Below are positions 800 through 54,411 of a DNA stretch of 64,000 bases, in pieces; the first letter of the stretch is position 1, and every line of letters starts with the position of its first letter. The stretch spans positions 1,612,001-1,676,000 of the forward strand of contig NZ_CP087723.1 in the NCBI RefSeq assembly GCF_024972735.1, read 5' to 3'. The notes beneath the pieces are model-generated. The model was not told the DNA's origin. It saw nothing but the letters and a program-made list of their open reading frames with translations, and ran no database searches. The DNA is from Halalkaliarchaeum sp. AArc-CO (lineage in GTDB: Archaea; Halobacteriota; Halobacteria; Halobacteriales; Haloferacaceae). The translations under genes were made by a program, and so were the position numbers.

Positions 800-1648
800 C
801 TATCGGCCGCGGTAATAGCCGAGATACCGCGTCGCGTAGTCGTCGCGACCCATCGCGAGGTCGGCGACCAGCGCGGTTTCCTTCGCGGATTCGGCGTGAA
901 TGATCGGCACGTTCAGTCCGGCGTTGACCGCCATCGCGAAGAAGACGTTGTTGATCAGTTCCCTGTTGGGGAGTTCGAAGGAGACGTTGCTCAGACCGAG
1001 CGTGATGTTGTTGCCCAGTTCGTCGCGGACTTTCTCCATGGTGTCGAGAGTGACGCGACCGGCCTCCGAATCGGTAGACAGCGGAAGCGCCGCACAGTCG
1101 ACGATCACGTCCTCTTCAGGAATATCGTGTTCGGCCGCGCGTGCGAGAATCGTTTCGGCGATCTGGAACCTCGTTTCCGCGTCGTTCGGGATCCCGTCGT
1201 CGTCCATCGTCAGGCCGATAACAGCCGTCTCGTACTCGGCTACGAGCGGAAGGATCGTTTCGAGCGACTCCTGTTCACCGTTGACCGAATTGACGACTGG
1301 TTTACCGGGACAAACCTGGAGCGCCTCCTCGAGGGCGTCGGCGTCCTCGTAGTTCGTGTCGATCACGATCGGCACGTCCACCGCGTCCGCAACGGTTTCG
1401 ACCGCCTTCGGGAGGATTTCGTCTTTGTCTACCCCGTCGGCGTCGACGTTGACGTCGATCAGGTCTGCACCGTTTTCGACCTGTTCCACTGCCAGTTCGC
1501 GTACCGGCTCCATGTTCCCCTCGGAAAGCGCCGCAGCCAGATCGGAATCCGGTCGCGGATTGATGCGTTCGCCGATGAGATGAACCTGTTCGGTTCGGTC
1601 GAGAGTGATCGGGTCGCCGGCACCTTGTACGGTTGTCTGTAGTGACAT
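800..1648 (-). CDS. Pterin-binding (methyltetrahydrofolate:corrinoid) methyltransferase
   Basis: 282 residues, the usual length for stand-alone pterin-binding methyltransferases (AcsE/MtvA/MtgA type). Family landmarks are present in order: GERIN near residue 26, DLIDVNVDADG near 62-72, PIVIDTNYEDALEEAL-type segment near 93-110, the PVVNSVNGE loop near 117-125, and LGLSNVSFELPNRELIN near 218-234. These line the pterin pocket of a TIM barrel. Members move a methyl group between a cobalamin on a corrinoid protein and a tetrahydrofolate-like pterin. The gene is divergent from a corrinoid protein gene, its natural partner. It is not DHPS (no sulfonamide-site signature) and not full-length MetH. 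Direction of transfer is inferred: since haloarchaea are not known to make methane or use coenzyme M, the pterin is the likely methyl acceptor. Confidence 0.9.
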   Translation of the reverse strand: MSLQTTVQGAGDPITLDRTEQVHLIGERINPRPDSDLAAALSEGNMEPVRELAVEQVENGADLIDVNVDADGVDKDEILPKAVETVADAVDVPIVIDTNYEDADALEEALQVCPGKPVVNSVNGEQESLETILPLVAEYETAVIGLTMDDDGIPNDAETRFQIAETILARAAEHDIPEEDVIVDCAALPLSTDSEAGRVTLDTMEKVRDELGNNITLGLSNVSFELPNRELINNVFFAMAVNAGLNVPIIHAESAKETALVADLAMGRDDYATRYLGYYRGR

Positions 1649-1916: not shown

Positions 1917-2573
1917 ATGTCAGACGAATTTGTGCAAGCGCTGGCTGATCTCGAGGAGGAGAAAGCAGTAGAAATGGCCGAAGAACGTCTGGAGGCCGGC
2001 GAAGACCCGCTCGATATCCTCGACGATCTGAAGGCGGGAATGGCGATCGTCGGCGACCGGTACGAGGCGGAAGACTACTTCATACCCGACCTCATGTACG
2101 CGGGCGACATCATCGAGCAGGTATCCGAGATCCTCCAGACAGAGATGCCCGACGCCGACGAGGAAGATCCGGTTGGCGTCGTCGTCCTGGGCACCGTCAA
2201 GGACGACATCCACGACATCGGGAAGGACCTCGTGTACTTCATGTTCGATCTGAACGGGTTCGAAGTCCACGACCTGGGGATCGACGTCCCCGTGCAGGAC
2301 TTCGTCGACGCCGTCGAGGAGCACGATCCCGACATCCTCGCGTTGAGTGGATTCCTGACCGCGGCGTTCGACTCGATGCAGGAGACCGTCGACGCGCTCG
2401 AGGAGGCGGGACTCATCGAGGAACACAACGAGGACGGGCTTCGAGAAGGAGTGAAAGTGATGATCGGCGGCGGACAGATCACCGACGACGTCTGCGAGTA
2501 CGTGGGAGCTGACGGCTACGAAACCGACGCACCGGGCGGCGTCAATCTGGCGAAAGAGTGGCTCGATGCGTGA
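1917..2573 (+). CDS. Corrinoid (B12-binding) methyl-carrier protein, copy 1
   Basis: 218 residues with the two-domain layout of MtbC/MttC/MtvC-type corrinoid proteins: a helical cap (about 1-85) and a Rossmann-like B12 domain (about 86-218). The cobalt-ligand motif DxHxxG is intact as D97-I-H99-D-I-G102, followed by the SGFLTAAFDSM and GGGQIT segments that wrap the nucleotide tail. The protein carries a methyl group on cobalamin between a substrate-specific methyltransferase and a second methyltransferase. It is divergent from the pterin methyltransferase and followed by DUF1638 and IclR genes on the same strand. A second copy at 35640-36308 is nearly identical through the B12 domain, so both probably interact with the same partners. 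Confidence 0.93.
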   Translation: MSDEFVQALADLEEEKAVEMAEERLEAGEDPLDILDDLKAGMAIVGDRYEAEDYFIPDLMYAGDIIEQVSEILQTEMPDADEEDPVGVVVLGTVKDDIHDIGKDLVYFMFDLNGFEVHDLGIDVPVQDFVDAVEEHDPDILALSGFLTAAFDSMQETVDALEEAGLIEEHNEDGLREGVKVMIGGGQITDDVCEYVGADGYETDAPGGVNLAKEWLDA

Positions 2574-2655: not shown

Positions 2656-3486
2656 ATGCTCGGTATCGTCGCCTGTGAAACGCTGTATGACGAACTTCGG
2701 CGGTCGGCTCCCGACGCCGTGATCGAACTGATCCCCCAGTGGTACCACGAGTTTCCGATTCACGCTCCCGAATCGGAACGGATACACGACGCGATCCAAG
2801 AGCGAATCCGGACACTCGAGGAGGCGGGAGTCGACGAAATCCTGGTGTTGTATCACGATCCCGATGGCGTTGCCGGGATTCGAACCTCCGACGTGCCCCT
2901 GTACGTCCATCACGGCGGCGATTGCATCGAACTATTTCTCACCGATCGTCCGAAGGGCCCTCACGGGGAACGGAAGGCTGCGGGAACGTACTACCTGACC
3001 AGGGGCTGGATCGACGTGGGACTGGACTGTTATAAAGTGTACAAGGCGTACGCGGGCGAGCTCGACGAGGTAACCGATCGATTCGAGGAGGCAATGGAGA
3101 GACATCCGGACCTGCGCGTGACCTGGCCCCGAAGCGAACGGATCGAACAGGCCACGGCACGGAGCGAGAGCATGCGAACTCCTCCGGAAACACTCGTCCG
3201 TGACGTCGTCAGCTGCTATCACCACGTCGTGCTTCTGGATACGGGGAACCTCTACCCGTTCCATCAAAAGTATGCCGAGGAGTTTTGCGAGTTCGTCGCC
3301 GAAGTCGGCGGCGACGATTCCCCGTCGGCAAGCGTCTCCCTTTCGGTGATGAACGGCGATCACCTTCGTCTCGAACAGATCCTCGATACCCCAGACACGG
3401 CTCGCGACGTGGAACGGTACGCGGCTGGAACGCCCGTCCCGGAGCCGACGAAGGCGGCTCCGCTCTCCGAATCGCTCGCCGAGTGA
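2656..3486 (+). CDS. DUF1638 family protein
   Basis: 276 residues beginning with the family-typical MLGIVACETLYDEL and containing the conserved GDCIELFL-like and TYYLTRGWID segments. DUF1638 proteins are of unknown biochemical function and, from general knowledge, occur mostly in methanogens and anaerobes next to corrinoid methyltransferase genes; this copy fits that neighbourhood. A TATA-like stretch CTTATTTTAT lies at 2627-2636, so the ATG at 2656 would start the transcript with almost no leader, supporting this start. It is soluble with no signal peptide. It may act with the corrinoid protein encoded 82 bp upstream, but no catalytic role can be read from the sequence. Confidence 0.85.
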   Translation: MLGIVACETLYDELRRSAPDAVIELIPQWYHEFPIHAPESERIHDAIQERIRTLEEAGVDEILVLYHDPDGVAGIRTSDVPLYVHHGGDCIELFLTDRPKGPHGERKAAGTYYLTRGWIDVGLDCYKVYKAYAGELDEVTDRFEEAMERHPDLRVTWPRSERIEQATARSESMRTPPETLVRDVVSCYHHVVLLDTGNLYPFHQKYAEEFCEFVAEVGGDDSPSASVSLSVMNGDHLRLEQILDTPDTARDVERYAAGTPVPEPTKAAPLSESLAE

Positions 3487-5438: not shown

Positions 5439-6143
5439 TCACCCGCTCAGATAACTTTCTTTGACGCGGTCGCTTTCGAGCAGCTCCTTTCCGGTCCCTT
5501 CCGTCGCGATGCGACCGTTTTCCAAGAGATACGCCCGATTCGCTAGATCGAGCGCCTGATCGACGTGCTGTTCGACCAAGACGACAGTGACGTCGTCGCT
5601 GATCTCGTCGACCTTCTCGAACACCCGGTTCGTCAGCTGGGGAGCGAGCCCTCCCGACGGCTCGTCAAGTGCGAGCACTTTCGGTTTGGCCATCAATCCC
5701 CGGCCGATCGCGACCATCTGCTGCTGTCCGCCGCTGAGGGTTCCCGCCTTCTGGTCGTTGCGCTCTTCGAGTATCGGGAACATCTCGTACACTTCCTCGA
5801 GAGTCTCTTCGAAGGTTTCGCGTTCGGTGTAGGCACCCATTTTGAGGTTCTCGTACACGGAAAGGTCGCCGAATAGGTTCCGCTCCTCGGAGACGTGGAC
5901 GAACCCGCGTTCGACGATCTCGCTGGGGGATAAGTTACGACTGTCGGTTCCGAAAATTTCTACCGTACCGTCGGTCGGCGTAATGAGGCCCGACATCGTC
6001 TTGAGAAGCGTCGACTTCCCGGTGCCGTTCGGACCGACAATCGCGACGACCGAGTCGTCTTCGCGGATCTCGAGTGAGACGTCCCACAGTACCTGGAGGT
6101 CACCGTAGTGAACGTCGAGTTCGTCGACGGTGATTCCCGTCAT
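5439..6143 (-). CDS. livF: Branched-chain amino acid-type ABC transporter ATP-binding protein LivF
   Basis: 234 residues, normal LivF length. Walker A GPNGTGKST is near residue 37, the Q-loop region near 82, the signature LSGGQQQM near 137 and Walker B VLALDEPSGGL near 157, followed by the switch His in VLVEQHVDQA. It overlaps livG by 4 bp (ATGA), so the two ATPases are translationally coupled. They are divergent from the binding protein and permeases encoded at 7110-10225, completing a five-component hydrophobic-amino-acid-transporter (HAAT) system. The true cargo is unknown. The surrounding corrinoid genes suggest a methylated amino acid or related amphoteric compound rather than Leu/Ile/Val, by inference. 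Confidence 0.93.
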   Translation of the reverse strand: MTGITVDELDVHYGDLQVLWDVSLEIREDDSVVAIVGPNGTGKSTLLKTMSGLITPTDGTVEIFGTDSRNLSPSEIVERGFVHVSEERNLFGDLSVYENLKMGAYTERETFEETLEEVYEMFPILEERNDQKAGTLSGGQQQMVAIGRGLMAKPKVLALDEPSGGLAPQLTNRVFEKVDEISDDVTVVLVEQHVDQALDLANRAYLLENGRIATEGTGKELLESDRVKESYLSG

Positions 6144-6868
6144 GCTTCCACCTCGGTACCGAGGTACGCCTCCACAACCTGCTGATTCTGCTGGATCTCG
6201 TCGGGAGTTCCCTCGGCAATTTTCTGCCCCTGATTCAGCACGACGATCCGATCTGTCGATCCCATGATCGCGTCCATAACGTGCTCGATCCAGAAAACAG
6301 AGATTCCGAGCTCGTCTCGAATGCGGACCAGCGAGTCGGCCATTTCGAAGAGTTCAGTCGGCGTCAGGCCGCTCCCGATCTCGTCGACGAGAATAAGCTT
6401 CGGGTCGGAGGCTAACCCTCTCGCCAGTTCGAGAAACTTTCGATCGGCGAGAGTAAGACTCCCGGCGTGTTCGTCCTCTGTGGCCTCGATGTCGACGAAT
6501 TCCAGACACTCGCGTGCGATCTGCTCGGCCTCGCTTCGGGACAGCGATTCCTGTCGCCCAAAGATCGCTCCGGCTGTGACGTTGTCGAGGACGGACAACT
6601 CGTTGAACGTCTGGGGAGTCTGGAAGGTACGAGCGATACCGAGCTTGGCGATCTGGTTGGGTTTCTTGCCGACCAACTCCTCACCCTGAAACTGTATCGA
6701 GCCTGCATTAGGGAGATGAACTCCCGTCAAAGTGTGGAAGAGAGTGGTTTTCCCCGCACCGTTCGGACCGATCAGCCCAACGATCTCCCCCTCGTCGATC
6801 GCGAGATCGACGTTGTCGACGGCAGTCAAGCCGCCGAACTCTTTGGTAACACCTGTAGCAGTCAGCAT
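6140..6868 (-). CDS. livG: Branched-chain amino acid-type ABC transporter ATP-binding protein LivG, with atypical signature motif
   Basis: 242 residues with Walker A GPNGAGKTT (about 34-42) and Walker B LILVDEIGSGL (about 158-168), including the catalytic Glu 163. The ABC signature, usually LSxGQ, reads LTLAD at 138-142, so one of the two composite ATP sites of a LivF/LivG heterodimer would be degenerate; LivF carries a normal LSGGQ. Such asymmetry is known in heterodimeric ABC ATPases. The start ATG at 6868 lies about 22-30 bp from a TATA-like TTTATATA on the minus strand (6889-6897), suggesting a leaderless transcript covering livG-livF. Confidence 0.92.
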   Translation of the reverse strand: MLTATGVTKEFGGLTAVDNVDLAIDEGEIVGLIGPNGAGKTTLFHTLTGVHLPNAGSIQFQGEELVGKKPNQIAKLGIARTFQTPQTFNELSVLDNVTAGAIFGRQESLSRSEAEQIARECLEFVDIEATEDEHAGSLTLADRKFLELARGLASDPKLILVDEIGSGLTPTELFEMADSLVRIRDELGISVFWIEHVMDAIMGSTDRIVVLNQGQKIAEGTPDEIQQNQQVVEAYLGTEVEA

Positions 6869-7109
6869 GATCGCTCGTTTCGACTATCGATATATAAATT
6901 GTCGGGTAGATCTATAACTCGGCAAGAAGGTCGACCGGAACGGCGCGTTTTCTCCCCACCACAAGATCAACCAGCCGTCTACTGATTCGGCGTAACTCCC
7001 CGAAAATAAGTCAAATAACCAACGTGAGAGCCGAGCAGCGTTCCAAATCCTGGTCCCGTGCCTGTTCCATAGCCAAACATTTATAATAAATTGGTATAGT
7101 GGCCCATAC
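6869..7109. promoter_or_regulatory. Divergent promoters of livGF and livKHM
   Basis: The 241-bp gap contains two TATA-like boxes facing outward: TTTATATA read on the minus strand at about 6889-6897 for livG, and TTTATAAT at about 7080-7088 for livK. Both are spaced about 25 bp from their ATG, the distance expected for leaderless haloarchaeal transcripts. Both halves of the transporter would thus be expressed from one control region. Confidence 0.6.
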
Positions 7110-8327
7110 ATGGGGAGTAGTAGCTACTCACACAGCCGACGGGCATATATGAAAGCTATCGGTGGAGTTTCAGCGCTCGGCACGGCTTCCTTGGCAGGAT
7201 GTGTGGGGGAAGATTCGGACGATGTATTGATTGGAAACACCGCAGCGTTGTCCGGACCGATGTCGTCGTACGGCCCCTACATCCGGGATGGACTCGAATA
7301 CGCGGCCCAGCAAATCAACGACGACGGTGGAGTCCTCGGGCGAGATCTCCGGATAGCGACGGAGGACAACGAATCCGATCCCGAAACCGCCGCAACGACG
7401 GCACTCCGGCAAATGGACGAAGGGGCCGTGGCGGTAACTGGGCCCGTGTTGAGCGACGTCTCCATCCGGGTGAGACACGAAACGGAAGCACAGCAGGTTC
7501 CGTTCCTCCCGATCCAGGGGGCATCACCCCGTCTACTGGACAAGGAGACCCGGTACACGTTCCGAGTCGGGGCACTGCCGGCACCGTACTACGCGAGAGC
7601 TACCGGCGAATTCGTAGAACATATCGGCGCAGATAACTACGCCGCGATCGTGGCTGATTACTCCTACGGCCACTCGTATCAGGAAGGAATCGAAGAGTTC
7701 GTGAAGTCGATCGACGGGCTGAACACGCAAGTCGAACTGGCTCCGGCCGGCGCGGACGACTTTTCCAGCCAGCTCCGGGCATTGCCGGACGATATCGAGT
7801 ACATGGACCTCGGCGGTCACCCAGTCGGCATCTTCACGATCATTCCCCAGATGTGGGAGGTCGGACTCGATCCGGACGCCACGTCGGGTCCCGGGGATCC
7901 GTTGCCGATCTTTTATGACGCCCTCGGAGACGACATCGACAGAGGAATCACCCAGATCCACATGGTCGATCCGACGACGGACGAGTATGTAGACGTGGCC
8001 CAGCAATACTTCGAAGAAACCGGCGAGTTCTTCGATCCGTTCACCACGTTCGGATACGTCACGGCTCAACTCGTCGCGGAGGCCATCGAAGACGCCGGTG
8101 AAGCGGATCCACAGGCAGTTCGCGACGCCATCAGCGATATCCGTTTCGATTCGCTGCTCGCGTATCCGCTCGAATACAACGAGTGGGGTGAGCTAACGGA
8201 GTCCAAACTTCAGGTGCTAGAGTTCAACCTCGACTCCCCACCGTACTATCCAGACGGCGACTTCTACGTGGAATCCCTCTTCGAGACGGACACATTCGAA
8301 CCGCTGGATCCCGATGAGTGGGAGTAG
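7110..8327 (+). CDS. livK: HAAT-family ABC transporter substrate-binding lipoprotein (LivK-like)
   Basis: 405 residues. The N-terminus has a Tat-like motif SRRAYMK (about 9-15), a hydrophobic stretch and a lipobox LAGC with Cys31, as expected for an exported, membrane-anchored haloarchaeal lipoprotein. The mature part has the periplasmic-binding type I fold typical of LivK/AmiC proteins (NTAALSGPMSSYGP near the start, SDVSIRV and ADYSYGHSY segments). It captures the cargo and delivers it to LivHM. First gene of livKHM; a MetH-reactivation-like gene follows on the same strand. Ligand cannot be assigned from sequence. Confidence 0.92.
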   Translation: MGSSSYSHSRRAYMKAIGGVSALGTASLAGCVGEDSDDVLIGNTAALSGPMSSYGPYIRDGLEYAAQQINDDGGVLGRDLRIATEDNESDPETAATTALRQMDEGAVAVTGPVLSDVSIRVRHETEAQQVPFLPIQGASPRLLDKETRYTFRVGALPAPYYARATGEFVEHIGADNYAAIVADYSYGHSYQEGIEEFVKSIDGLNTQVELAPAGADDFSSQLRALPDDIEYMDLGGHPVGIFTIIPQMWEVGLDPDATSGPGDPLPIFYDALGDDIDRGITQIHMVDPTTDEYVDVAQQYFEETGEFFDPFTTFGYVTAQLVAEAIEDAGEADPQAVRDAISDIRFDSLLAYPLEYNEWGELTESKLQVLEFNLDSPPYYPDGDFYVESLFETDTFEPLDPDEWE

Positions 8328-8387
8328 GGCGGCCCCGTGGTCGAAACGACGTGAGGACGGCGGGAACACAATCGGTAGGACACGACT

Positions 8388-9248
8388 ATGGAACTGCTCA
8401 CGACGCTGATCGAGATAACGATCGATGGAATCGGGAGGGGGATGCTGTGGGCGCTCCTCGGCGCCGGGATCACACTGGTGTTCGGACTGGGGGAGGTACT
8501 AAATCTGTCTCAGGGCGTGTTAGCAGTGGTCGGCGCGGCGGTGGTGTTCGAGATGACCAATATCGGCGTCCACGTCGTCCCCGCGGTCGTGATCGGCATC
8601 GTCGCGCTTGCGGTGTTGAGTTACGCGATCGATCAGGTCATTTTGAGCAGCGTCTATCGATCGGAAGGGGAAGAGCGGATCATGGTGGCGATCTTCGTCA
8701 CTGTCGGTATCCTTCTCGCGCTCGAAGGGTTGATGTTCCAACGGTATCCGGGCAGTTTCTCGCTTCCCGGGGGGATTTCGAGCATCGACGTCGGTAGTGT
8801 GACGATACTCGGCGCGAGCATCCTGAACATCGCCGTCGGTGTGATCGTTATCTCACTTCTATTCATCTATCTGAATTACACGTATTCGGGGAATGCAGCC
8901 CGAACGATCGCCTCCGACGAGACAGGAGCGTATCTGTGTGGCGTTGACGTGCGGAGAATGAGAACAGTTATTTTCATATTGAGCGGAATGTTGGCCGCAA
9001 TAGCCGGGATCCTCTACGGAATCGGGACCGAGATCTCGGTCGCGGCGGCGTTCGAACTGACCGTGTTTGCGCTCCTTGTGTCAATCGTCGGCGGCGTACG
9101 AGACGTCCGAGGAACGATCATGTCCGGTATCGGCCTGGGAGTGGTGTTCACTTACGCGAACTATTTCATCGGTAGCTACGTTGCGATGATCGCCCTGTTC
9201 CTGGCAGTCATGTTGACGATCGCGATCAGAAAGGAGGACACACTATGA
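8388..9248 (+). CDS. livH: HAAT-family ABC transporter permease LivH
   Basis: 286 residues, largely hydrophobic with about eight membrane segments. The N-terminal region GRGMLWALLGAGITLVFGL followed by NLSQG matches the LivH pattern (GxxYALxAlGLTLiFGvxxxxNxAhG). The loop SDETGAYLCGVDVRRMRT corresponds to the cytoplasmic EAA-like coupling loop. It overlaps livM by 4 bp, so the two permeases are coupled. Located 60 bp after livK. Confidence 0.93.
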   Translation: MELLTTLIEITIDGIGRGMLWALLGAGITLVFGLGEVLNLSQGVLAVVGAAVVFEMTNIGVHVVPAVVIGIVALAVLSYAIDQVILSSVYRSEGEERIMVAIFVTVGILLALEGLMFQRYPGSFSLPGGISSIDVGSVTILGASILNIAVGVIVISLLFIYLNYTYSGNAARTIASDETGAYLCGVDVRRMRTVIFILSGMLAAIAGILYGIGTEISVAAAFELTVFALLVSIVGGVRDVRGTIMSGIGLGVVFTYANYFIGSYVAMIALFLAVMLTIAIRKEDTL

Positions 9249-10314: not shown

Positions 10315-11010
10315 ATGGGACTGGTAATCGAGGAGGTGACGATCCTTCGGGAGGTGGGGATCGACTTTTCCCTCGAAGACATCCTGGCAACACCACCGCT
10401 TTCGAAGTGGCGGAAATCCCGGAACTCGAGAGACCAACTCGAAGCGGCGGTCGAACGGATCCGTCCGGAGGTCGAACGGGAACTGAACCCCCGGGCGATC
10501 TACAGAGGAGTGCCCACGGAGACCTCCGGAATTCACGCGTATTCGCCGCCGGCTCCGGTTACGAAAGCGGAATTCGTCGGCAACATCGTCGTGACTCCAG
10601 GGGAGCTAGAATACGGGAACGAGCACGCCGAAGGGATGTTCGACGACTTCGTGCGGGACGCGATCGAAAACGTTGCAGTTCAGCGGCTTTCTGCCGTCGT
10701 CGGGCAGCGGTTCAGGGACGAGGCGAACGAGCGGGGATACAACACGACCCGACTGTTCGCCCCGGGATCCGGCATTGAAAACTGGCCGTTGGAAAACCGC
10801 CGATACGTGTTCGACTCACTACCCTGTGAGGAGATCGGCGTGCGGTTGACCGACGCCGGACAGGTCGAACCGAACAAAACAGTGAGCTGTGTGATCGGGT
10901 TCGGTCCCGACATCGAACAGGCACCTGGGCTCGTCTCTTGTGAGGGTTGTTCGAAACTGCCCGACTGCCCGTACGCAGGGGCGAGGGACGCGATAGCCGC
11001 AAACACGTGA
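10315..11010 (+). CDS. MetH-reactivation-domain-like protein with C-terminal cysteine cluster
   Basis: 231 residues. The C-terminal half resembles the cobalamin-reactivation (AdoMet-binding) domain of methionine synthase: TTRLFAPGSGIENWPLENRR (144-163) matches the R-x-SPGYGxWPL loop, and IGVRLTDAGQVEPNKTVSCVI (174-194) matches the IgvxLtesgxMxPxKSvs strand. It ends with C209-x2-C212-x5-C218, and there are further Cys at 171 and 192; the terminal trio could bind a metal or Fe-S centre. Stand-alone proteins of this type are found beside corrinoid methyltransferases. No RamA/RACo-type activator is seen here, so this protein may re-reduce inactive Co(II) cobalamin. It follows livM by 89 bp on the same strand. 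Confidence 0.78.
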   Translation: MGLVIEEVTILREVGIDFSLEDILATPPLSKWRKSRNSRDQLEAAVERIRPEVERELNPRAIYRGVPTETSGIHAYSPPAPVTKAEFVGNIVVTPGELEYGNEHAEGMFDDFVRDAIENVAVQRLSAVVGQRFRDEANERGYNTTRLFAPGSGIENWPLENRRYVFDSLPCEEIGVRLTDAGQVEPNKTVSCVIGFGPDIEQAPGLVSCEGCSKLPDCPYAGARDAIAANT

Positions 11011-34350: not shown

Positions 34351-35640
34351 CTACCGGACGGAATTTACCATCGCCCGGACGTTCTCCGGTTTGGCTTCGT
34401 CGAGTCCGACTCCCGGCGCCAGAACGAAGCCGTTCTCCCCGACGGTCTCCACGAGCTCTTTCGAGTAGTCGCGGACCTTCTCCGGTTCCGCAGTGTAAAG
34501 TAGCGACGTTGGAACGTTTCCGGCGATACACGTTCTGTCCCCCAGCACCTCCGCCGCCCGGCCCATGTCCGTGTTCTGGAAGTGCCAGACCATCGGCCCG
34601 TCGGAATACTCGGCAATGATTTCGAGTCTGCTCTCGTAGCTCCCCTCCGCGAACAGCCAGGGAATCAGACCCTCTTCGTGGAGGGCTTCGATCACTGTCC
34701 GGAGCTGCGGCCAGTAGAACTCCTCGAACTCCGCAGGGGACATGAAGCTGTCCGCCCCTTTGTGCAATGGAATGAACACGTGTGGGTTGTTGTTCACCCG
34801 TGCGGTCGTGATCCCGAGTTCGATCGCCCACGGGGTAATCCGCTCGATCGCTTCGAGGAGAGTGTCGGGGCGGCGCTTCAGATCCATCATCACCCCTCTG
34901 GTGCCCCTGATGGTGTCCCCGAGCATATCATACGGTGCGAGAGTGATCCCGCCAACGTTTTGAGGGTGACCGGACGCGACGATCTCCTCGACGGTCGCTC
35001 CGACGACGCCTTGCCACTCGAGGGCCGCCTCTCCCGCCTGCTCGAGCGCATCGAACGCCTCCTGCACCTCCGGGAGGCCGAACGGGAGAACGAACGGGTG
35101 GACGCTTGCGATCCCGACGCTGAGCGAGATCAACTGGGGTAACTGCGCTAGCCCACCCAGCTCCCCGAACGCTGCCGGTACGTAGTGCCGAAGGAGGAAG
35201 TCCGTCGGATCCCGGATGAACGCGTCGTAATCCTCCGCACTCATGTAGTCGGGCTCCTTGGCCTGATAGACGGTGTCCGGCGAGGAGCCGTCTCCCGGCC
35301 AGTCGAACACCCGGTAGTCGACTGCCTCGAGGGACTCCGCCGACGGAATGAGGGTCGTCGACCACGGGAAGACGTCGAGATCGAGATCCTCCGCGAAATG
35401 AAGGAGCGCCGCACTGAGCTGTTCCCCGTCGTTCATCGCCGTTTCCGGCGTGATCCCGTGATGAAACGCCGGGTAAAACGTGCTCAACACGGAGACTGGA
35501 ACCCGATCCGGACCGTCCATCCGGACCGCGTCGGCGTATCGTTGCGCCCGTTTGCGGTACTGTTCTCTGGCGTCTTCGTCCGTGAATTCGACTCCTTCCC
35601 CGGCGATCCACGAGTCGAGAGTCGGCTGGGGCAGCGACAT
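34351..35640 (-). CDS. URO-D-fold methyltransferase (MtaA/O-demethylase MT-I-like)
   Basis: 429 residues, a uroporphyrinogen-decarboxylase-fold protein. It is not HemE: it is too long, lacks the HemE RQAGRY N-terminus, and lies next to a corrinoid protein. The MtaA/MtbA zinc ligands are not conserved: the H-x-C site reads H353-F-Q, and the later PGC reads PGV (V411). Instead E318-x13-E332-x20-H353 resembles the E-x14-E-x20-H zinc pattern reported, as I recall it, for acetogen O-demethylase methyltransferase I. The start ATG at 35640 overlaps the stop of the corrinoid gene by one base, giving tight coupling. Likely role: transfer of a methyl group from a methylated substrate to the corrinoid protein. 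Confidence 0.85.
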   Translation of the reverse strand: MSLPQPTLDSWIAGEGVEFTDEDAREQYRKRAQRYADAVRMDGPDRVPVSVLSTFYPAFHHGITPETAMNDGEQLSAALLHFAEDLDLDVFPWSTTLIPSAESLEAVDYRVFDWPGDGSSPDTVYQAKEPDYMSAEDYDAFIRDPTDFLLRHYVPAAFGELGGLAQLPQLISLSVGIASVHPFVLPFGLPEVQEAFDALEQAGEAALEWQGVVGATVEEIVASGHPQNVGGITLAPYDMLGDTIRGTRGVMMDLKRRPDTLLEAIERITPWAIELGITTARVNNNPHVFIPLHKGADSFMSPAEFEEFYWPQLRTVIEALHEEGLIPWLFAEGSYESRLEIIAEYSDGPMVWHFQNTDMGRAAEVLGDRTCIAGNVPTSLLYTAEPEKVRDYSKELVETVGENGFVLAPGVGLDEAKPENVRAMVNSVR

Positions 35641-36308
35641 CACGCCACCTCCGCCCCTTCCAGCCACTGTTTCGCCAACTTGACTCCGCCGGGTGCGTCG
35701 GTTTCGTAACCGTCAGCCCGAACGTACATGCGGACGTCCTCGGTGATCTGCCCGCCGCCGATCATCACTTTCGTCCCCTTGCGTAGCCCCTCGTCGTCGA
35801 ACTCCTCGATGAGTCCAGCCTCCTCGAGCGCGTCGACGGTCTCCTGCATCGAGTCGAACGCCGCGGTCAAAAAGCCGCTCAGCGCCACAATGTCGGGGTC
35901 GTGCTCCTCGACGGCATCGACGAAGTCCTGCACGGGGACGTCGATTCCCAGGTCGTGTACTTTGAACCCGTTCAGATCGAACATGAAGTACACGAGGTCC
36001 TTTCCGATGTCGTGGATGTCGTCCTTGACAGTTCCGAGAACGACGGTTCCGAGCGTGTCCTCCTCCTGTTCGGGGAGCTCCTCTTGGATGAGCTGTGAGA
36101 TCTGTTCGATGATGTCGCCCGCGTACATGAGGTCGGGTATGAAGTAGTCTTCCGCCTCGTACCGGTCGCCGACGATTGCCATTCCCGCCTTCAGATCGTC
36201 GAGAACAGCCATCGGATCCTCGCCGGAGTCGAGACGCTCCTCGGCGATCTGTATTGCCCGTTCCTCCTCGAGATCTGCTAACGCGTGTATCAGCTCGTCT
36301 GAAGTCAT
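35640..36308 (-). CDS. Corrinoid (B12-binding) methyl-carrier protein, copy 2
   Basis: 222 residues from the ATG at 36308. It is colinear with copy 1 (1917-2573) and nearly identical over residues 39-65 and 91-160; differences cluster at the N-terminus, in the linker at 68-88 and at the C-terminus. The cobalt motif is D97-I-H99-D-I-G102. The C-terminus is extended by a few residues (EGAEVA). First gene of the operon with the URO-D methyltransferase. A minus-strand TATA-like TTTAAG (36338-36343) resembles the one in front of copy 1. Confidence 0.93.
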   Translation of the reverse strand: MTSDELIHALADLEEERAIQIAEERLDSGEDPMAVLDDLKAGMAIVGDRYEAEDYFIPDLMYAGDIIEQISQLIQEELPEQEEDTLGTVVLGTVKDDIHDIGKDLVYFMFDLNGFKVHDLGIDVPVQDFVDAVEEHDPDIVALSGFLTAAFDSMQETVDALEEAGLIEEFDDEGLRKGTKVMIGGGQITEDVRMYVRADGYETDAPGGVKLAKQWLEGAEVA

Positions 36309-36859: not shown

Positions 36860-38221
36860 ATGGTGGAAGCGAACCGAACTGTTGTGATTCCTCTCAAAAT
36901 TCCAGAAGAATCACGCTCGGACTTCCACCAGACTATCCTGCCGTATCTCTACTGCCAGCAGGAAGCTGTCGAACACTGCTGGCCAGACTCACCGAAACAG
37001 CCAGCCGACCTGCAAACCAGCAAGCAGGATGCCGAAAACGCACTCTACGACCAACTTCGAGACGAGACCAACGAACAACTCCACTCGAATCTCGTCCAGA
37101 AAGCCATCAAAGACGCAACCAGCGCGATCTCCTCGTGCAAGACCAACTGGGAGAACGGCGACCGTCTCAGCAAACCTGATTTTTACCACCGTGAGCGGGC
37201 TGGCTACACGATGACCTACGACAAACGAGCCGCCACCTACGGTCGGTACGAAGCGACGTTCTCGACGCTCAACGGCACTGTGACCTGTAGATACGAACTG
37301 CCAGCAGAAATCGAGGGAACGCCGTACGGCGAGTATATCCTGGACAGACGGTGGTCGTTTTCCACGAGCAAACTCGTCTTTGACGGCGAGCGGTTCTGGC
37401 TCCACGCGGTGATGCAACGCCAGTTCGGAGATGACCCAGTGTATGCACCCACGACGGACAATTCAGGTTCAGACACGCATGAGGACACTCATCGTGTACT
37501 CGGCGTGGACTTGAACGTCGATGGGGCAACAGCGGTGACGTCGACTGGCCAGTTCTACGGCAACGCCGATGCACTCAACGCCTACCGGTCTGAGCAAGAA
37601 CAGTTACGCGGCGAACTTCAGCAAACAGGGACGCGAAGTGCCCATCTCCGGTTTCAACAGCGGCGTGGCACGGAGTGGCGATACTACGACCAGTACGCCC
37701 ACCATGTTGCCAATGCCATCAAACAGGAAGCACTCCGGGTTCGTGCCACCCACGTCGCCTTCGAGGAGTTGAGGCGGATTCGCACGCGCATCTCGAATCT
37801 GCCCAAGTTCCAGCACTGGCTGTTCAAAAAAGTCCGCACGTACACTGAATACAAGCTGGAAGGATACGGTGTGACTGTGGATACAACGAACCCGGAATAC
37901 ACGAGTCAGGGTTGTAGCCGCACAGATTGTGAGTGTGTGGACGAAGACAATCGTGACGGCAAGCACTTCGAGTGCGTTGAGTGTGGGTATACAGTAAATT
38001 CGGATTACAATGCGGCCAAGAACATCGGATTCCGGTATCTCTGTGAGGAGCTATCCAGCCCGGCGAGCCGCACGTGTTCGTCCGGGCAGGCCACGAGTCA
38101 ACTGGCCTTGGTGTCGGGGACACTCTCACCACCCGGCGATTTTGCCGAGCATGAGTGGGTGTCCACCGACAAGCCCCACCCTCAACAAGCGAGTGGCAGT
38201 TCATCTGCCCGAGCGCAGTAG
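36860..38221 (+). CDS. tnpB: RNA-guided endonuclease TnpB
   Basis: 453 residues. The RuvC catalytic acids look intact: D217 in RVLGVDLNVDG, E302 or E303 in HVAFEELRRI, and D382 in VNSDYNAAKNIG. The zinc finger lies between them as GCSRTDCECVDEDN and FECVECGY (about 351-377). The last 60 residues (after FRYLCEEL) are low-complexity and are encoded by DNA that doubles as the omega-RNA region. A likely active nuclease guided by its own 3' RNA. No stop codon or frameshift interrupts it. The ATG at 36860 follows an AT-rich stretch (CATATTACGT). Confidence 0.92.
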   Translation: MVEANRTVVIPLKIPEESRSDFHQTILPYLYCQQEAVEHCWPDSPKQPADLQTSKQDAENALYDQLRDETNEQLHSNLVQKAIKDATSAISSCKTNWENGDRLSKPDFYHRERAGYTMTYDKRAATYGRYEATFSTLNGTVTCRYELPAEIEGTPYGEYILDRRWSFSTSKLVFDGERFWLHAVMQRQFGDDPVYAPTTDNSGSDTHEDTHRVLGVDLNVDGATAVTSTGQFYGNADALNAYRSEQEQLRGELQQTGTRSAHLRFQQRRGTEWRYYDQYAHHVANAIKQEALRVRATHVAFEELRRIRTRISNLPKFQHWLFKKVRTYTEYKLEGYGVTVDTTNPEYTSQGCSRTDCECVDEDNRDGKHFECVECGYTVNSDYNAAKNIGFRYLCEELSSPASRTCSSGQATSQLALVSGTLSPPGDFAEHEWVSTDKPHPQQASGSSSARAQ

Positions 38222-38228
38222 GGTGGGG
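38174..38228 (+). ncRNA. Predicted 3' end of TnpB omega-RNA (sotRNA) overlapping the tnpB stop
   Basis: CCCCACCCT (38174-38182) and AGGGTGGGG (38220-38228) form a perfect 9-bp stem. Inside it GGCAG-TTCAT-CTGCC (38195-38209) is a perfect 5-bp hairpin. The structure spans the end of the tnpB reading frame and its TAG stop. Sense-overlapping RNAs at the 3' end of IS1341 tnpB genes are known in Halobacterium, and TnpB guide RNAs are made from this position. The 5' boundary is not visible and probably lies 50-100 nt further upstream; the guide would begin after 38228. Confidence 0.65.
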
Positions 38229-38536
38229 TAGTTGACGTACGGATGTCCGCGGAGCCGTCGATCCATCCGTTCGGCGAGAACCGCCGGCTGCGTGGGGTCG
38301 GCACCGAGAACGGTGTCTGCGAGTTCTTCGATTCCCGCCCGTGCGCCACGGGGAAAGGCGGGGAGATATGCGGTGCCCAGCGTCGACAGTTCGCCCCAGC
38401 CGACGACTCCCTCGTCGGTGTCGAGACGGACGATCGTCGAATCGAACGCCTCGTAGGAGTTGCCGCCCGCCCAGTCGTAGCTTCCCTCGGCGATCGGGAG
38501 ATCCACCTGATAGACGCGTATCCCTGTGACGTGCAT
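38229..38536 (-). pseudogene. MR/MLE-type enolase-superfamily protein, N-terminal fragment
   Basis: About 102 codons starting MHVTGIRVYQVDLPIAEG at 38536, with the capping-domain pattern of mandelate racemase/muconate lactonizing enzymes (FDSTIVRLDTDEGVVGWGE, PAVLAERMDRRLRGHPYVN). It stops at the right end of the TnpB element exactly before the place where the family has its SAIDxALWD barrel start, so the catalytic barrel is missing. It resembles the amino-acid-derived branch (such as hydroxyproline betaine epimerase or hydroxyproline dehydratase) by eye, at low confidence. Confidence 0.78.
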
Positions 38537-49362: not shown

Positions 49363-51054
49363 TTACGGGGCTAACCCGTAGATATTCTGGATCTGCTGTT
49401 CCGGGACGGTCCCGTCGTCGTTCCAGCCCCGCGTGTCGTAGTACGCATCGAGTGCCTCCTCGAACCCGTCTAACTGATCGACGTACGGGAGCGTGTCGTC
49501 CGCACGGTCGAATCCCCGCCGGTTGTTGAAGTCGCGCTCGAGTGTGACCACCCGTTCGCCGACGGCCGTCAACTCCGAGAGATCGGCGTCGAACAACGCC
49601 TCGAGTCGCTCGGGATGCTCGGCGATCATCCCCCGGGAGAACCGACAGATGACACCGCAGTCCTCGAGGGCGCGCATGTTCTCCTGGGTAGCGACCGCCG
49701 GCGCTTTCCCCTCCAGTCCCTCCGGTGGGAACGCATCCGCCTCGTCGACAAGCGGGTACTCCCACGCGTAGAAGGTGGAGTACATGTGGTCGCCGCCGCG
49801 GTTGGCGACGGCGTACGCGAGCCCCTGGCCGTGGAGCGTCCGCCCTTCGTGGGCCGCAAAGTCCAGCCCTTTTACCGTCCAGTTCTCTACCCCCAACTCC
49901 TCGTGACACCGGGCGATCCCCTCCGCGAGCGTGTCGCCGATCCCCTCGCGGTGGGCGATCTTCTCGACAGTCTCGTGGATCAATTCGACGTCGCCGAACG
50001 CGTCCTCGCTTTCGAGATACGCCGCGATCGTGTTGCCACACGAGATCGTGTCCATCCCGAGTTGATCACAGAGTTCGTTCGACTGCATCACGTCGACGAC
50101 GTCGTCGACGGCCTGGTTCGAGCCGAACGCCATGATCGTCTCGAACTCGGGGCCTTCGGTCTCGAGGCCGCTTTCCTCGTCGCGGGTGGGGAGCTTGCAG
50201 GCGAACGCACAGCGGGAGCAGGTGCCGCGTTTGTGCTTTTTGGCCTCGACGGCGTCGCCGTTGATCCCCTCGATCCCCTCGAACTGTTTCTCCGACCAGT
50301 AGCGGGTGGGCATCCCCTCGATCTCGTTTGCGAGATCCGTCACCGACGCCGTCCCCTGCCGTTTCATGATGCTGTCGCTTTCGGCAGCCTCCCGATGGAT
50401 CTCCGCTTGCACGTCCGGAACCTCGATGTCGGGGGCCGAGTCGCCCTCGAACGTGACCGCCTTCAGGTTCTTCGCCCCCATCACCGCCCCGAGACCGCCC
50501 CGCCCGAACGCGCGGCTCTCGGAGGTCATGATCGAGGCGAACCTGACCTGGTTCTCGCCGGCCGGTCCGATACAGAGCACGTTTTCGGCCTCGAGACCGC
50601 GCTCGTCGTGTACGTACTCGGTGACCTCGGGGACGCGCGCACCCTCGAGTTCCGGCGCCGGATCGAACTCGATGCCGTCGTCGGTGACGTGGACGATGAG
50701 CAACTCGTCGCTTTCCCCGACGAACTCGACGGCGCCGTATCCCGTCTCTGCAAAGGGGCGGGAGACGAATCCGCCGGCATTTGAAGATGCGAGCCCGTTC
50801 GTGAGCGGCGACACGGCGGTCGCGTTCGTTCGGCCGGTGAAGCTCATCTCCGACTGCTGGAGGGGGCCGGTCGAAAAGTAGAGCCTGTTGTCCGAGCCAA
50901 GTGGATCGGCGTCGAAGGGAATTCGTTCGTGAGCCAGGCGCGTTGCGACCCCGCGTCCGCCGATAAACTCGTCGCGGACATCGTCGATCCGTTCCGTCTC
51001 GTGGTCCCTCGCAGACAGATCTACTGTGAGGAGTGACCCTTGCGTTGTAAGCAT
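49363..51054 (-). CDS. Aldehyde:ferredoxin oxidoreductase, paralogue 1
   Basis: 563 residues from the ATG at 51054, aligned with the likely start of paralogue 2 (LLTVDLSARD versus LLTLDVTDRE); an in-frame ATG at 51066 is possible. AOR N-terminal domain (FIGGRGVATRLAHERIPFDADPLG, GFVSRPFAETGYGAVEF, RGGLGAVMGAKNLKAV) binds tungstopterin. The [4Fe-4S] ligands are CSRCAFAC plus a fourth Cys in DTISCGNTIAAY. It would oxidise aldehydes to acids with ferredoxin as acceptor. Adjacent LLM and MoaD-like genes suggest cofactor and redox links. Confidence 0.93.
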   Translation of the reverse strand: MLTTQGSLLTVDLSARDHETERIDDVRDEFIGGRGVATRLAHERIPFDADPLGSDNRLYFSTGPLQQSEMSFTGRTNATAVSPLTNGLASSNAGGFVSRPFAETGYGAVEFVGESDELLIVHVTDDGIEFDPAPELEGARVPEVTEYVHDERGLEAENVLCIGPAGENQVRFASIMTSESRAFGRGGLGAVMGAKNLKAVTFEGDSAPDIEVPDVQAEIHREAAESDSIMKRQGTASVTDLANEIEGMPTRYWSEKQFEGIEGINGDAVEAKKHKRGTCSRCAFACKLPTRDEESGLETEGPEFETIMAFGSNQAVDDVVDVMQSNELCDQLGMDTISCGNTIAAYLESEDAFGDVELIHETVEKIAHREGIGDTLAEGIARCHEELGVENWTVKGLDFAAHEGRTLHGQGLAYAVANRGGDHMYSTFYAWEYPLVDEADAFPPEGLEGKAPAVATQENMRALEDCGVICRFSRGMIAEHPERLEALFDADLSELTAVGERVVTLERDFNNRRGFDRADDTLPYVDQLDGFEEALDAYYDTRGWNDDGTVPEQQIQNIYGLAP

Positions 51055-51272
51055 CGTTCGATTCATCGCTCCGTTACGTTTTGAATCTACTGCTCGGTTA
51101 CCGTGCTGCTGTCCGGGCGTCGATGGAACTATGACCGTCGTCGATTGGTTCGCTTGTCGACACCGTTTACGGACGACGTCGACTGGCACAACCCGATCTG
51201 GAGGCACGAGGATGGCAGCGTCGCGGAGTGGTAAGTTACCGGTACACGAGCTACCGATCGAAGAGCCTCCTC

Positions 51273-52367: not shown

Positions 52368-52652
52368 ATGGAGGTCGAGTGCAACTTCTTTGGACCCGTT
52401 CGCGACGTTGTCGGAACGAAGACTGTCGTCTGTGAACTTCCGGTGGGGGCCACCGTCGCCGAACTCGTCTGCGATCTCGACGAGACCTACGACGGGCTCG
52501 CCGATCAGCTACTGGAAAGAGAACACGAACTGGCCGAAAACCTCGTGATCACCGTCGACGGTCGGAACGTCCGACAGCTCGACGGGGGAGAAACGGAACT
52601 CGACGACGGGACGGTCGTCCGAATCTCCCCATCCGTCGGTGGCGGCGGCTAG
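52368..52652 (+). CDS. MoaD/ThiS-family ubiquitin-like protein with C-terminal Gly-Gly
   Basis: 94 residues of beta-grasp type: VECNFFGPVRDVVGTKTVVCELPVG, TVAELVCDLDETYDGLADQLLER, ITVDGRNVRQLDGGETELDDGTVVRISPSVGGGG. The terminal diglycine is present, so it could be adenylated by an E1-like enzyme and act in molybdo/tungstopterin sulfur transfer or as a SAMP-type modifier. It precedes AOR paralogue 2 by 61 bp (to the ATG at 52714), which suits a tungstopterin role. Haloarchaea have several such proteins. Confidence 0.88.
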   Translation: MEVECNFFGPVRDVVGTKTVVCELPVGATVAELVCDLDETYDGLADQLLEREHELAENLVITVDGRNVRQLDGGETELDDGTVVRISPSVGGGG

Positions 52653-52683
52653 AAACCGGAGACGGTCGCGTCCGAAACCAACG

Positions 52684-52690
52684 TTTAATA
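52684..52690 (+). promoter_or_regulatory. TATA-like box of AOR paralogue 2
   Basis: TTTAATA at 52684-52690 is 24 bp from the ATG at 52714, the spacing for a leaderless start. It argues that AOR 2 has its own promoter and that the ATG at 52690, inside the box, is not used. Confidence 0.55.
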
Positions 52691-52713
52691 TGTATGGTAT
52701 TGTCTCACCAGAC

Positions 52714-54411
52714 ATGATCACTGCAGGTGGTCCACTGTTGACGTTGGACGTCACCGATCGAGAGGCCAGAGAAGAGAACATCGACGACGTGCTGGGGACG
52801 TTTATCGGTGGACGGGGGGTCGCAACCAAACTCGCCCACGATCGGATCCCGTTCGACGCCGATCCGTTCGGGCCCGAAAATCGGGTGTACGTCTCGACCG
52901 GGCCGCTCCAGCAGGCGACGATGAGTTTCACGGGCCGGATGAACGTCACCGGCCTCTCGCCGTTGACTGGCGGCCTCCTCTCGACGAACGCCGGCGGTTA
53001 TCTCTCGCGGAACTTCGTCGGGACGGGACACAACTGTGTCGAGGTCGTCGGCGAAAGCGACGAGTTGCTCGCGATCCACGTCACCGAGGACGGCGTGGAG
53101 TTCGAAGAAGTCCCCGAACTCGAGGAAGCAACCGTCCCCGAGGTCACCGAGTACGTAAACGACGAGCGCGGTCTCGAGGCCGAAAACGTGCTCTGTATCG
53201 GTCCGGCGGGGGAAAACCTCGTCCGGTACGCCTGCGTGATGACCTACGAGTCCCGGGCGTTCGGCCGCGGCGGAATGGGCGCGGTGCTCGGATCGAAAAA
53301 CGTCAAAGCCATCACGTTCGAAGGGGACGCCGAGTTCGACGTTGGGCTCCCGGAAGACGTCCAGTCGGAGGTCCACCAGAAGGCGGCGACGTCCGATTCG
53401 ATCTTCCGGCGACAGGGCACGACCTCCGGGACGGAGTTCATAAACGACGAGTTCTCGCTGCCGACCCGATACTTCAACGACTACCACTTCGAAGAGGTCG
53501 AAGGGATCGGGGGTGACGCCGTCGAATCGAAGAAGTACAAAACGGCGGCGTGTTCGGCCTGTGCGTTCGCCTGCAAGCTCCCCACCCGCGACGAGGAGAC
53601 CGGCCTCGAGACCGAAGGTCCCGAGTTCGAGACGGTCTACTCCTTCGGTTCGAACCAGGGAGTCGGGGACGTCGTCGACGTGATGAAATCGAACGACCTC
53701 TGTGACGAGTTCGGTCTGGACACCATCTCGTGTGGAGTCACCATCGCCGCCTACATGGACGCCCACGACGAGTTCGGCAACGCGGCGCTCGCCCACGAGC
53801 TCATCGAGAAGATCGCCTACCGTGACGGGGAAGGGGACCTCCTCGCGGAAGGCGTCGACCGCGTCCACGAGGAACTGGGCGTCGACAACTACACGGTAAA
53901 GGGAATGGAGTTCGCCGCCCACGACGGACGGACGATCCACGGCCAGGGGCTGTCCTATGCGGTTGCGAATCGCGGGGGCGACCACATGTACTCTGTGATG
54001 CTGCGGGACGAATACGACGGCAATTTCCCGCGTGAAGGGCTCGACGGGAAGCCCGAGCGCATCGTCGAACTCGAAAACTACGCGGCGTTCCGGGACAGCG
54101 GCATCATCTGTGCGTTCTCGAAGGAGGCGGAGGGGTTCGTCTCCGAAGAGACGTTCGAGAGACTGTTCGATACAGAGTACGAGAAACTCGTGGAGGTCGG
54201 GAGCCGGGTCGTCGAACTCGAACGGCACTTCAACAACAGACGCGGGATGGACCGCGAGGACGACGATCTGCCGTACGAGATCCCCGGGTTCGAGGCCGGT
54301 CTCGACGAGTATTACCAGACGCGTGGCTGGAACGACGACGGGACCGTCCCCGAGCACCGCGTCGCCGAATACGCAGAAACCGACGAGCCGGGCGGAACGG
54401 CCGACGACTGA
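52714..54411 (+). CDS. Aldehyde:ferredoxin oxidoreductase, paralogue 2
   Basis: 565 residues (MITAGGPLLTLDVTDRE). Same domain order as paralogue 1: FIGGRGVATKLAHDRIPFD, GGYLSRNFVGTGHNCVEV, RGGMGAVLGSKNVKAI, then the [4Fe-4S] cysteines CSACAFAC and DTISCGVTIAAY. The two proteins are closely related along their whole length, and both have the C-terminal LDEYYQTRGWNDDGT/LDAYYDTRGWNDDGT signature. They differ around the middle, where substrate specificity may lie. Preceded by a MoaD-like gene, followed by a second one on the other strand. Confidence 0.94.
   Translation: MITAGGPLLTLDVTDREAREENIDDVLGTFIGGRGVATKLAHDRIPFDADPFGPENRVYVSTGPLQQATMSFTGRMNVTGLSPLTGGLLSTNAGGYLSRNFVGTGHNCVEVVGESDELLAIHVTEDGVEFEEVPELEEATVPEVTEYVNDERGLEAENVLCIGPAGENLVRYACVMTYESRAFGRGGMGAVLGSKNVKAITFEGDAEFDVGLPEDVQSEVHQKAATSDSIFRRQGTTSGTEFINDEFSLPTRYFNDYHFEEVEGIGGDAVESKKYKTAACSACAFACKLPTRDEETGLETEGPEFETVYSFGSNQGVGDVVDVMKSNDLCDEFGLDTISCGVTIAAYMDAHDEFGNAALAHELIEKIAYRDGEGDLLAEGVDRVHEELGVDNYTVKGMEFAAHDGRTIHGQGLSYAVANRGGDHMYSVMLRDEYDGNFPREGLDGKPERIVELENYAAFRDSGIICAFSKEAEGFVSEETFERLFDTEYEKLVEVGSRVVELERHFNNRRGMDREDDDLPYEIPGFEAGLDEYYQTRGWNDDGTVPEHRVAEYAETDEPGGTADD

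Follow-up and report, generated by a model that had tools for sequence, protein, structure and literature searches.

A URO-D-fold methyltransferase paired with a corrinoid protein in a haloarchaeon: probable first step of a folate-linked demethylation system

Introduction

What purpose might a haloarchaeon have for a URO-D-fold methyltransferase whose gene overlaps that of a corrinoid protein? Acetogens and a few archaea are known to demethylate methoxy compounds by corrinoid-dependent systems, the archaea being proposed users of H4MPT. In the open-access literature that we searched, the coverage of which is incomplete, no description of such a system in haloarchaea was found. We analysed the gene pair MT1a–CPa and its surroundings in a window of 64,000 nucleotides (G000:C2:1612001-1676000) of a 3.18-Mb haloarchaeal genome; positions given without a contig are those of the window. 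A first-pass annotation had taken MT1a for an O- or N-demethylating methyltransferase I (MT I) with a zinc site of its own, and the two halves of this proposal fared differently.

Results

Gene content and genomic context

Pfam assigned PF01208 (URO-D) to MT1a with 76 bits. Its ATG lies at 35640, while the longest open reading frame opens 27 bases earlier with GTG. CPa precedes MT1a, and at their junction (...GCGTGATGTCG..., TGATG) the stop codon TGA and the start codon ATG share one base; with B12-binding domains recognized by Pfam in the upstream gene, the one-base overlap with a corrinoid gene read in the first pass is confirmed. A URO-D-fold MT I encoded together with a B12-binding corrinoid protein is the arrangement of the Odm, Mto and Cdm kinds of system. 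The pairing is not due to chance: an MT1a query retrieved 57 loci, spread over Chloroflexota, Deltaproteobacteria, Acidobacteriota, Spirochaetes, Bacillota and Asgard archaea, and 44 of them contain corrinoid-protein genes, which mostly adjoin the MT I gene.

Table 1 Positions in the window of the system components and of the MT1a codons discussed.
Feature	Position	Strand	Basis or remark
MT1a, URO-D-fold methyltransferase I, 429 aa from ATG	34351..35640	-	Pfam URO-D, CdmB profile match, AF2 model
CPa, corrinoid (B12-binding) methyl-carrier protein	35640..36308	-	PF02310 + PF02607, DxHxxG at residue 97
H293 codon	34762..34764	-	His just past strand, predicted barrel mouth
E332 codon	34645..34647	-	near-invariant acid at place of Cys in MtaA H-x-C
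D358 codon	34567..34569	-	conserved Asp just past strand 351-354
H353 codon	34582..34584	-	proposed zinc ligand; variable in homologues, kept in MT1a orthologues
E318 codon	34687..34689	-	proposed zinc ligand; outer helix, variable
MT II, pterin-binding methyltransferase, predicted methyl-corrinoid:tetrahydrofolate	800..1648	-	PF00809 98 bits; NF005719 254 bits vs cut-off 259
CPb, second corrinoid protein	1917..2573	+	PF02310/PF02607
DUF1638 protein, system-associated	2656..3486	+	PF07796 56 bits; also in both other haloarchaeal clusters
231-aa protein, remote MetH activation domain relative, C-x2-C-x5-C tail	10315..11010	+	homologues near MT I; weak PF02965 matches

A second locus straddles the start of the window, about 32 kb from MT1a–CPa, and outside the window it holds a RACo/RamA-type activator, an MFS carrier and the paralogues MT1b and MT1c (57% and 45% identical to MT1a, respectively); inside, the genes for MT II, CPb and the DUF1638 protein continue it. 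The full set thus comprises three MT I paralogues, two corrinoid proteins, a folate-type MT II, the RACo/RamA activator, the MFS carrier, a DUF1638 protein and a MetH-activation-like protein. As in Odm/Mto/Cdm-kind systems, a pterin MT II and a RACo/RamA activator are encoded near the system, both of them in the second locus and not beside MT1a. Genes for a branched-chain-amino-acid-type ABC transporter (solute-binding protein, permease and ATPases; 5439-9248), possibly a substrate importer, stand between the DUF1638 and MetH-like genes.

Two other haloarchaea (G001 and G007) carry all parts in one cluster of roughly 15 kb, in the order activator, MT1b, CP, MT1a, 222-aa protein, MT II, CP, MT1c, MFS and DUF1638; in G001, an SSF symporter was identified between the 222-aa protein and MT II. 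As both keep the parts together, MT1a–CPa appears, from this comparison, to have been relocated in the window genome, over a distance of about 32 kb. A TnpB-like gene (Cas12f1-like TNB domain; 36860-38221, plus strand) adjoins the pair, making transposition plausible. This gene overlaps the end of a 111-aa N-terminal MR/MLE fragment (38201-38536, minus strand) that looks cut. Farther along the window, aldehyde:ferredoxin oxidoreductase genes (49363-51207, minus strand; 52639-54411, plus strand) flank a luciferase-like monooxygenase gene.

The 231-aa protein is 40% identical to the 222-aa protein of the G001 and G007 clusters, which in both stands between MT1a and MT II. Homologues also occur in 13 loci of bacteria, usually immediately downstream of the MT I gene. 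Within this family, C209 and C218 are invariant and C212 nearly so. The 231-aa protein gave no significant Pfam match, its matches to PF02965 being weak; its family and neighbourhood mark it as a likely corrinoid-related accessory.

Distribution and folate pathway

Matches to the MT1a query (E <= 1e-20) occurred in three of 292 Halobacteria genomes, representing two of 78 genera. Outside the haloarchaea, the MT I clade is broadly shared with uncharacterized proteins of bacteria and Asgard archaea, the closest of them up to 45% identical along the full length; these relatives and the rarity in Halobacteria suggest that the MT I genes were acquired horizontally. MTHFR (PF02219) alone is a poor marker of the system, being present in 72 of the 292 genomes. 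DUF5981, however—the C-terminal partner fused to MTHFR in G000 and G007—exceeded its cut-off in exactly three of the 292, the same three that hold the system. The chance of this coincidence is about 2e-7 when genomes are treated as independent and 3e-4 when counted by genus, the latter figure being fairer because G001 and G007 share ancestry.

For onward oxidation, Pfam identified in G000 a formate-THF ligase, MTHFR and a formate-dehydrogenase-like molybdopterin oxidoreductase, and FolD was recognized by sequence only. The MTHFR-DUF5981 fusion could instead serve a second corrinoid system of the MtrH/MttB type, given that genomes holding the system also hold MttB-type methyltransferases and that MtrH-like genes lie near a second activator in G000 and G007. 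Four MttB-family matches are present in G000, one of them with an in-frame TGA (C2:693966-695369, minus strand). The second corrinoid locus of this genome (G000:C2:2244000-2258500; L112, L116 and L122) carries genes for a DMGDH-like protein, a second activator, a second DUF1638, MTHFR, MtrH, formate dehydrogenase, formate-THF ligase, MttB and FolD. A haem-copper oxidase was found in G000; the same search found none in G001 and G007, suggesting an anaerobic way of life for both.

Conserved residues at the predicted barrel mouth

To rank positions of MT1a, we computed entropy over all 429 of them in 102 representatives sharing less than 80% identity. D358 (Asp in 95; rank 12), E332 (94 Glu and 6 Asp; rank 14) and H293 (His in 91; rank 24) stood out as conserved polar residues at the predicted barrel mouth, and in the same set H293 and E332 co-vary (p 1e-7, by a statistic that ignores phylogeny). 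The AF2 model (mean pLDDT 95) places H293 after strand 287-292 and E332 after strand 326-331. When MT1a was aligned with MtaA (4ay7; hhalign, E 7e-6), the H-I-C of the latter fell on F330-A331-E332, and a gapless back-count from the shared GNV motif gave the identical register over 47 residues. This register rests on the 4ay7 segment from HMMER, because three methanogen genomes yielded distant relatives only and no true MtaA. We consequently reject H353-F-Q355 as the H-x-C place, to which the first-pass annotation had assigned it. V411 (rank 271) is plausible at the MtaA third-ligand place, which lies outside the hhalign segment. Position 353 matches, exactly or to within one residue, an MtaA Glu that acts there as a labile fourth ligand and has Glu665 as its MetE analogue.

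These positions invite the idea that MT1a binds a metal through two His and one Glu—H293, E332 and H353—at a barrel-mouth site peculiar to its orthologues. In the model, all three are predicted at or near strand C-terminal ends (H353 within strand 351-354), and E332 and H353 coincide, to within one residue, with the MtaA Cys and the next Glu. Such an orthologue-specific site may exist, since none of the three MT1a orthologues (61% identity) has lost H353. Position 353, however, is among the most variable of the family (rank 379; His in 18 of 70 close relatives), is Gln in MT1b and more generally Q or I in paralogues of the same clusters, and both CdmB and a Moorella O-demethylase are metal-free (PMC13222342). 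We therefore hold a metal at this site to be possible but on the unlikely side.

Characterized relatives and the class of substrate

Among characterized systems, the MtoB/MtoC/MtoD proteins of Methermicoccus and Archaeoglobus come close in layout, with a corrinoid protein beside MT I, an MFS carrier and an activator, at about 30% identity. The A. fulgidus mto cluster, published at AF_0006-13 (PMC8359953), has this same CP-MT I-MFS-activator set in our data (L040), and its MFS is 34% identical to that of the haloarchaeon. H293, E332 and D358 are kept in 11 of 11 MtoB-type sequences, whereas A. fulgidus MtoB has Val at residue 353. The Mto system belongs to a different clade and has H4MPT, reached through MtoA, as its proposed acceptor; the haloarchaeal one has a PF00809 MT II, folate pathway genes and three MT I paralogues. 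The acetogen O-demethylases OdmB, VdmB and MtvB resemble it, by literature descriptions rather than sequences, in combining an MT I of the URO-D superfamily with a corrinoid protein and a folate MT II.

In a quick maximum-likelihood tree—where the HemE root is a long branch and only the separateness of clades is relied on—haloarchaeal MT1a and MT1b formed one clade (99) with MT1c branching nearby, and the MtoB-type proteins and CdmB formed another (98; 15 rows), outside which MT1a falls. As its clade is separate from these characterized enzymes, transfer of a substrate class from them is weak. An O-methyl (methoxy) compound is the most likely substrate of MT1a.

Carrier, activator and MT II would work in the same way if MT1a took its methyl group from a methylated or quaternary amine, and a DMGDH-like gene is at hand in the second corrinoid locus. 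Set against such N-demethylation are the four MttB-family matches that the genome already has for amines and the fact that the URO-D-fold MT Is named in the literature act on methoxyaromatics or haloalkanes, so that we judge it quite unlikely.

Even less probable is dehalogenation of a haloalkane in the manner of CdmB, the chloromethane MT I of Acetobacterium malicum subsp. dehalogenans, despite the fact that CdmB is the best PDB match of MT1a (9rui, E 2.2e-35; full-length profile match, E 1.3e-85) and shares its MT I-corrinoid-MT II-activator logic and folate acceptor. CdmB is haloalkane-specific, crystallized without zinc, is affected by neither EDTA nor zinc, and has been placed near MtoB (PMC13222342). 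It belongs to a separate clade, has hydrophobic haloalkane channels and no metal, and shows W, Q, N and W at the places aligned with MT1a positions 293, 332, 358 and 353, whereas MT1a keeps H293 and E332. In a Lokiarchaeal array (L088:5304-11287), four MT I genes in a row accompany a single corrinoid protein, and one of these Asgard paralogues (L088:7296) has Q332 with H293 kept.

The proposed zinc triad

The pattern E-x14-E-x20-H denotes zinc binding in acetogen O-demethylase methyltransferase I, and that zinc site is reportedly the subject of one published study. By analogy, the first-pass annotation had read MT1a as a zinc-dependent O-demethylase with E318, E332 and H353 as ligands. Some acetogen MT Is do contain zinc (PMC13222342). 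The numbering of E318, E332, H353, Q355 and V411 was accurate, and E-x13-E-x20-H is literally present in MT1a, its orthologues and 14 of 133 aligned homologues; E-x14-E-x20-H itself, from which MT1a departs in its first gap, occurred in register in 0 of the 133 and in 0 of 75 further URO-D-like Bacillota ORFs. Of the triad, E332 stands, being both conserved and at the barrel mouth. Free variation among homologues, named beforehand as counting against the triad, was found for H353 and for E318, which ranks 267 of 429 and has a hydrophobic residue in its place in 47 of 70 close relatives. E318 is moreover modelled in an outer helix (302-322), four residues before the C-terminal end, and by TIM-barrel topology would be on the face opposite the active site. 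Co-variation of E318 with H353 was not significant among the 102 representatives (Fisher p 0.17). Conservation, fold and lack of co-variation lead us to reject the triad as highly improbable; the reactive residues are probably H293 and E332.

That MT1a is a CoM or other thiol methylase like MtaA/MtbA, or an ordinary HemE, is barely conceivable and was rejected: it shares their fold and matches their profiles weakly, but stays far below the curated cut-offs (38 vs 400 bits for MtaA, 32 vs 303 for HemE), has F330-A-E332 and V411 instead of the H-x-C...C zinc ligands and a partner set different from that of the methylcobamide:CoM methyltransferases, and a true hemE lies elsewhere in the genome (C2:407139).

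Discussion

We propose, with a probability of about 0.7, that MT1a–CPa performs the first step in a system for corrinoid-dependent demethylation, probably O-demethylation, that feeds methyl-tetrahydrofolate in a haloarchaeon. This reading draws on the component set, the pairing with a corrinoid protein, the likeness to mto clusters, the missing thiol-methylase ligands, the residues H293, E332 and D358, and the coincidence with DUF5981. It also upholds the earlier view of MT1a as an O- or N-demethylating MT I coupled to a corrinoid protein, as opposed to a CoM methylase, a view that also has on its side the homology to CdmB and MtoB along the full length and the complete set of MT I, corrinoid protein, MT II and activator in the vicinity. 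By analogy, the system most likely works like the Odm, Mto and Cdm systems while standing outside the MtoB/CdmB clade.

From the observed gene content, conservation, register, predicted fold and distribution, we infer direction, substrate and chemistry as follows. The RACo/RamA-type activator would keep the corrinoid as Co(I), and MT1a would take a small methylated substrate into the mouth of its TIM barrel and offer its methyl group to Co(I)-CPa. The leaving group would be polarized or protonated by H293 and E332 with assistance from D358; in MT1a, which has H353 nearby, a metal might contribute. From methyl-Co(III)-CPa, the methyl group would then pass to tetrahydrofolate via the PF00809-type MT II, and methyl-THF could be oxidized via MTHFR, FolD, formate-THF ligase and formate dehydrogenase, for all of which the genome has genes. 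The three MT I paralogues may serve different substrates.

Our hypothesis that H293 and E332 assist the departure of a poor leaving group rests on one characterized exception, CdmB. More tentative still, with the odds against it, is the combined proposition that some haloarchaea demethylate methoxylated compounds by a folate-linked corrinoid pathway with a distinct MT I clade and that the H293/E332 pair sets the chemistry of this branch of the superfamily, being present for alkoxide or phenolate, which leave poorly, and lost in haloalkane-specific CdmB, whose leaving group needs no such assistance.

If true, a folate-linked version of this metabolism in Halobacteria would mean an added carbon or electron source at high salt, also for two relatives in which no haem-copper oxidase was detected. 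For the family, the H293/E332 reading corrects the zinc-site hypothesis. With Trp and Gln in place of this pair in one structurally solved haloalkane relative, C-O versus C-halogen activation by URO-D-fold MT Is becomes a question for mutagenesis of two residues.
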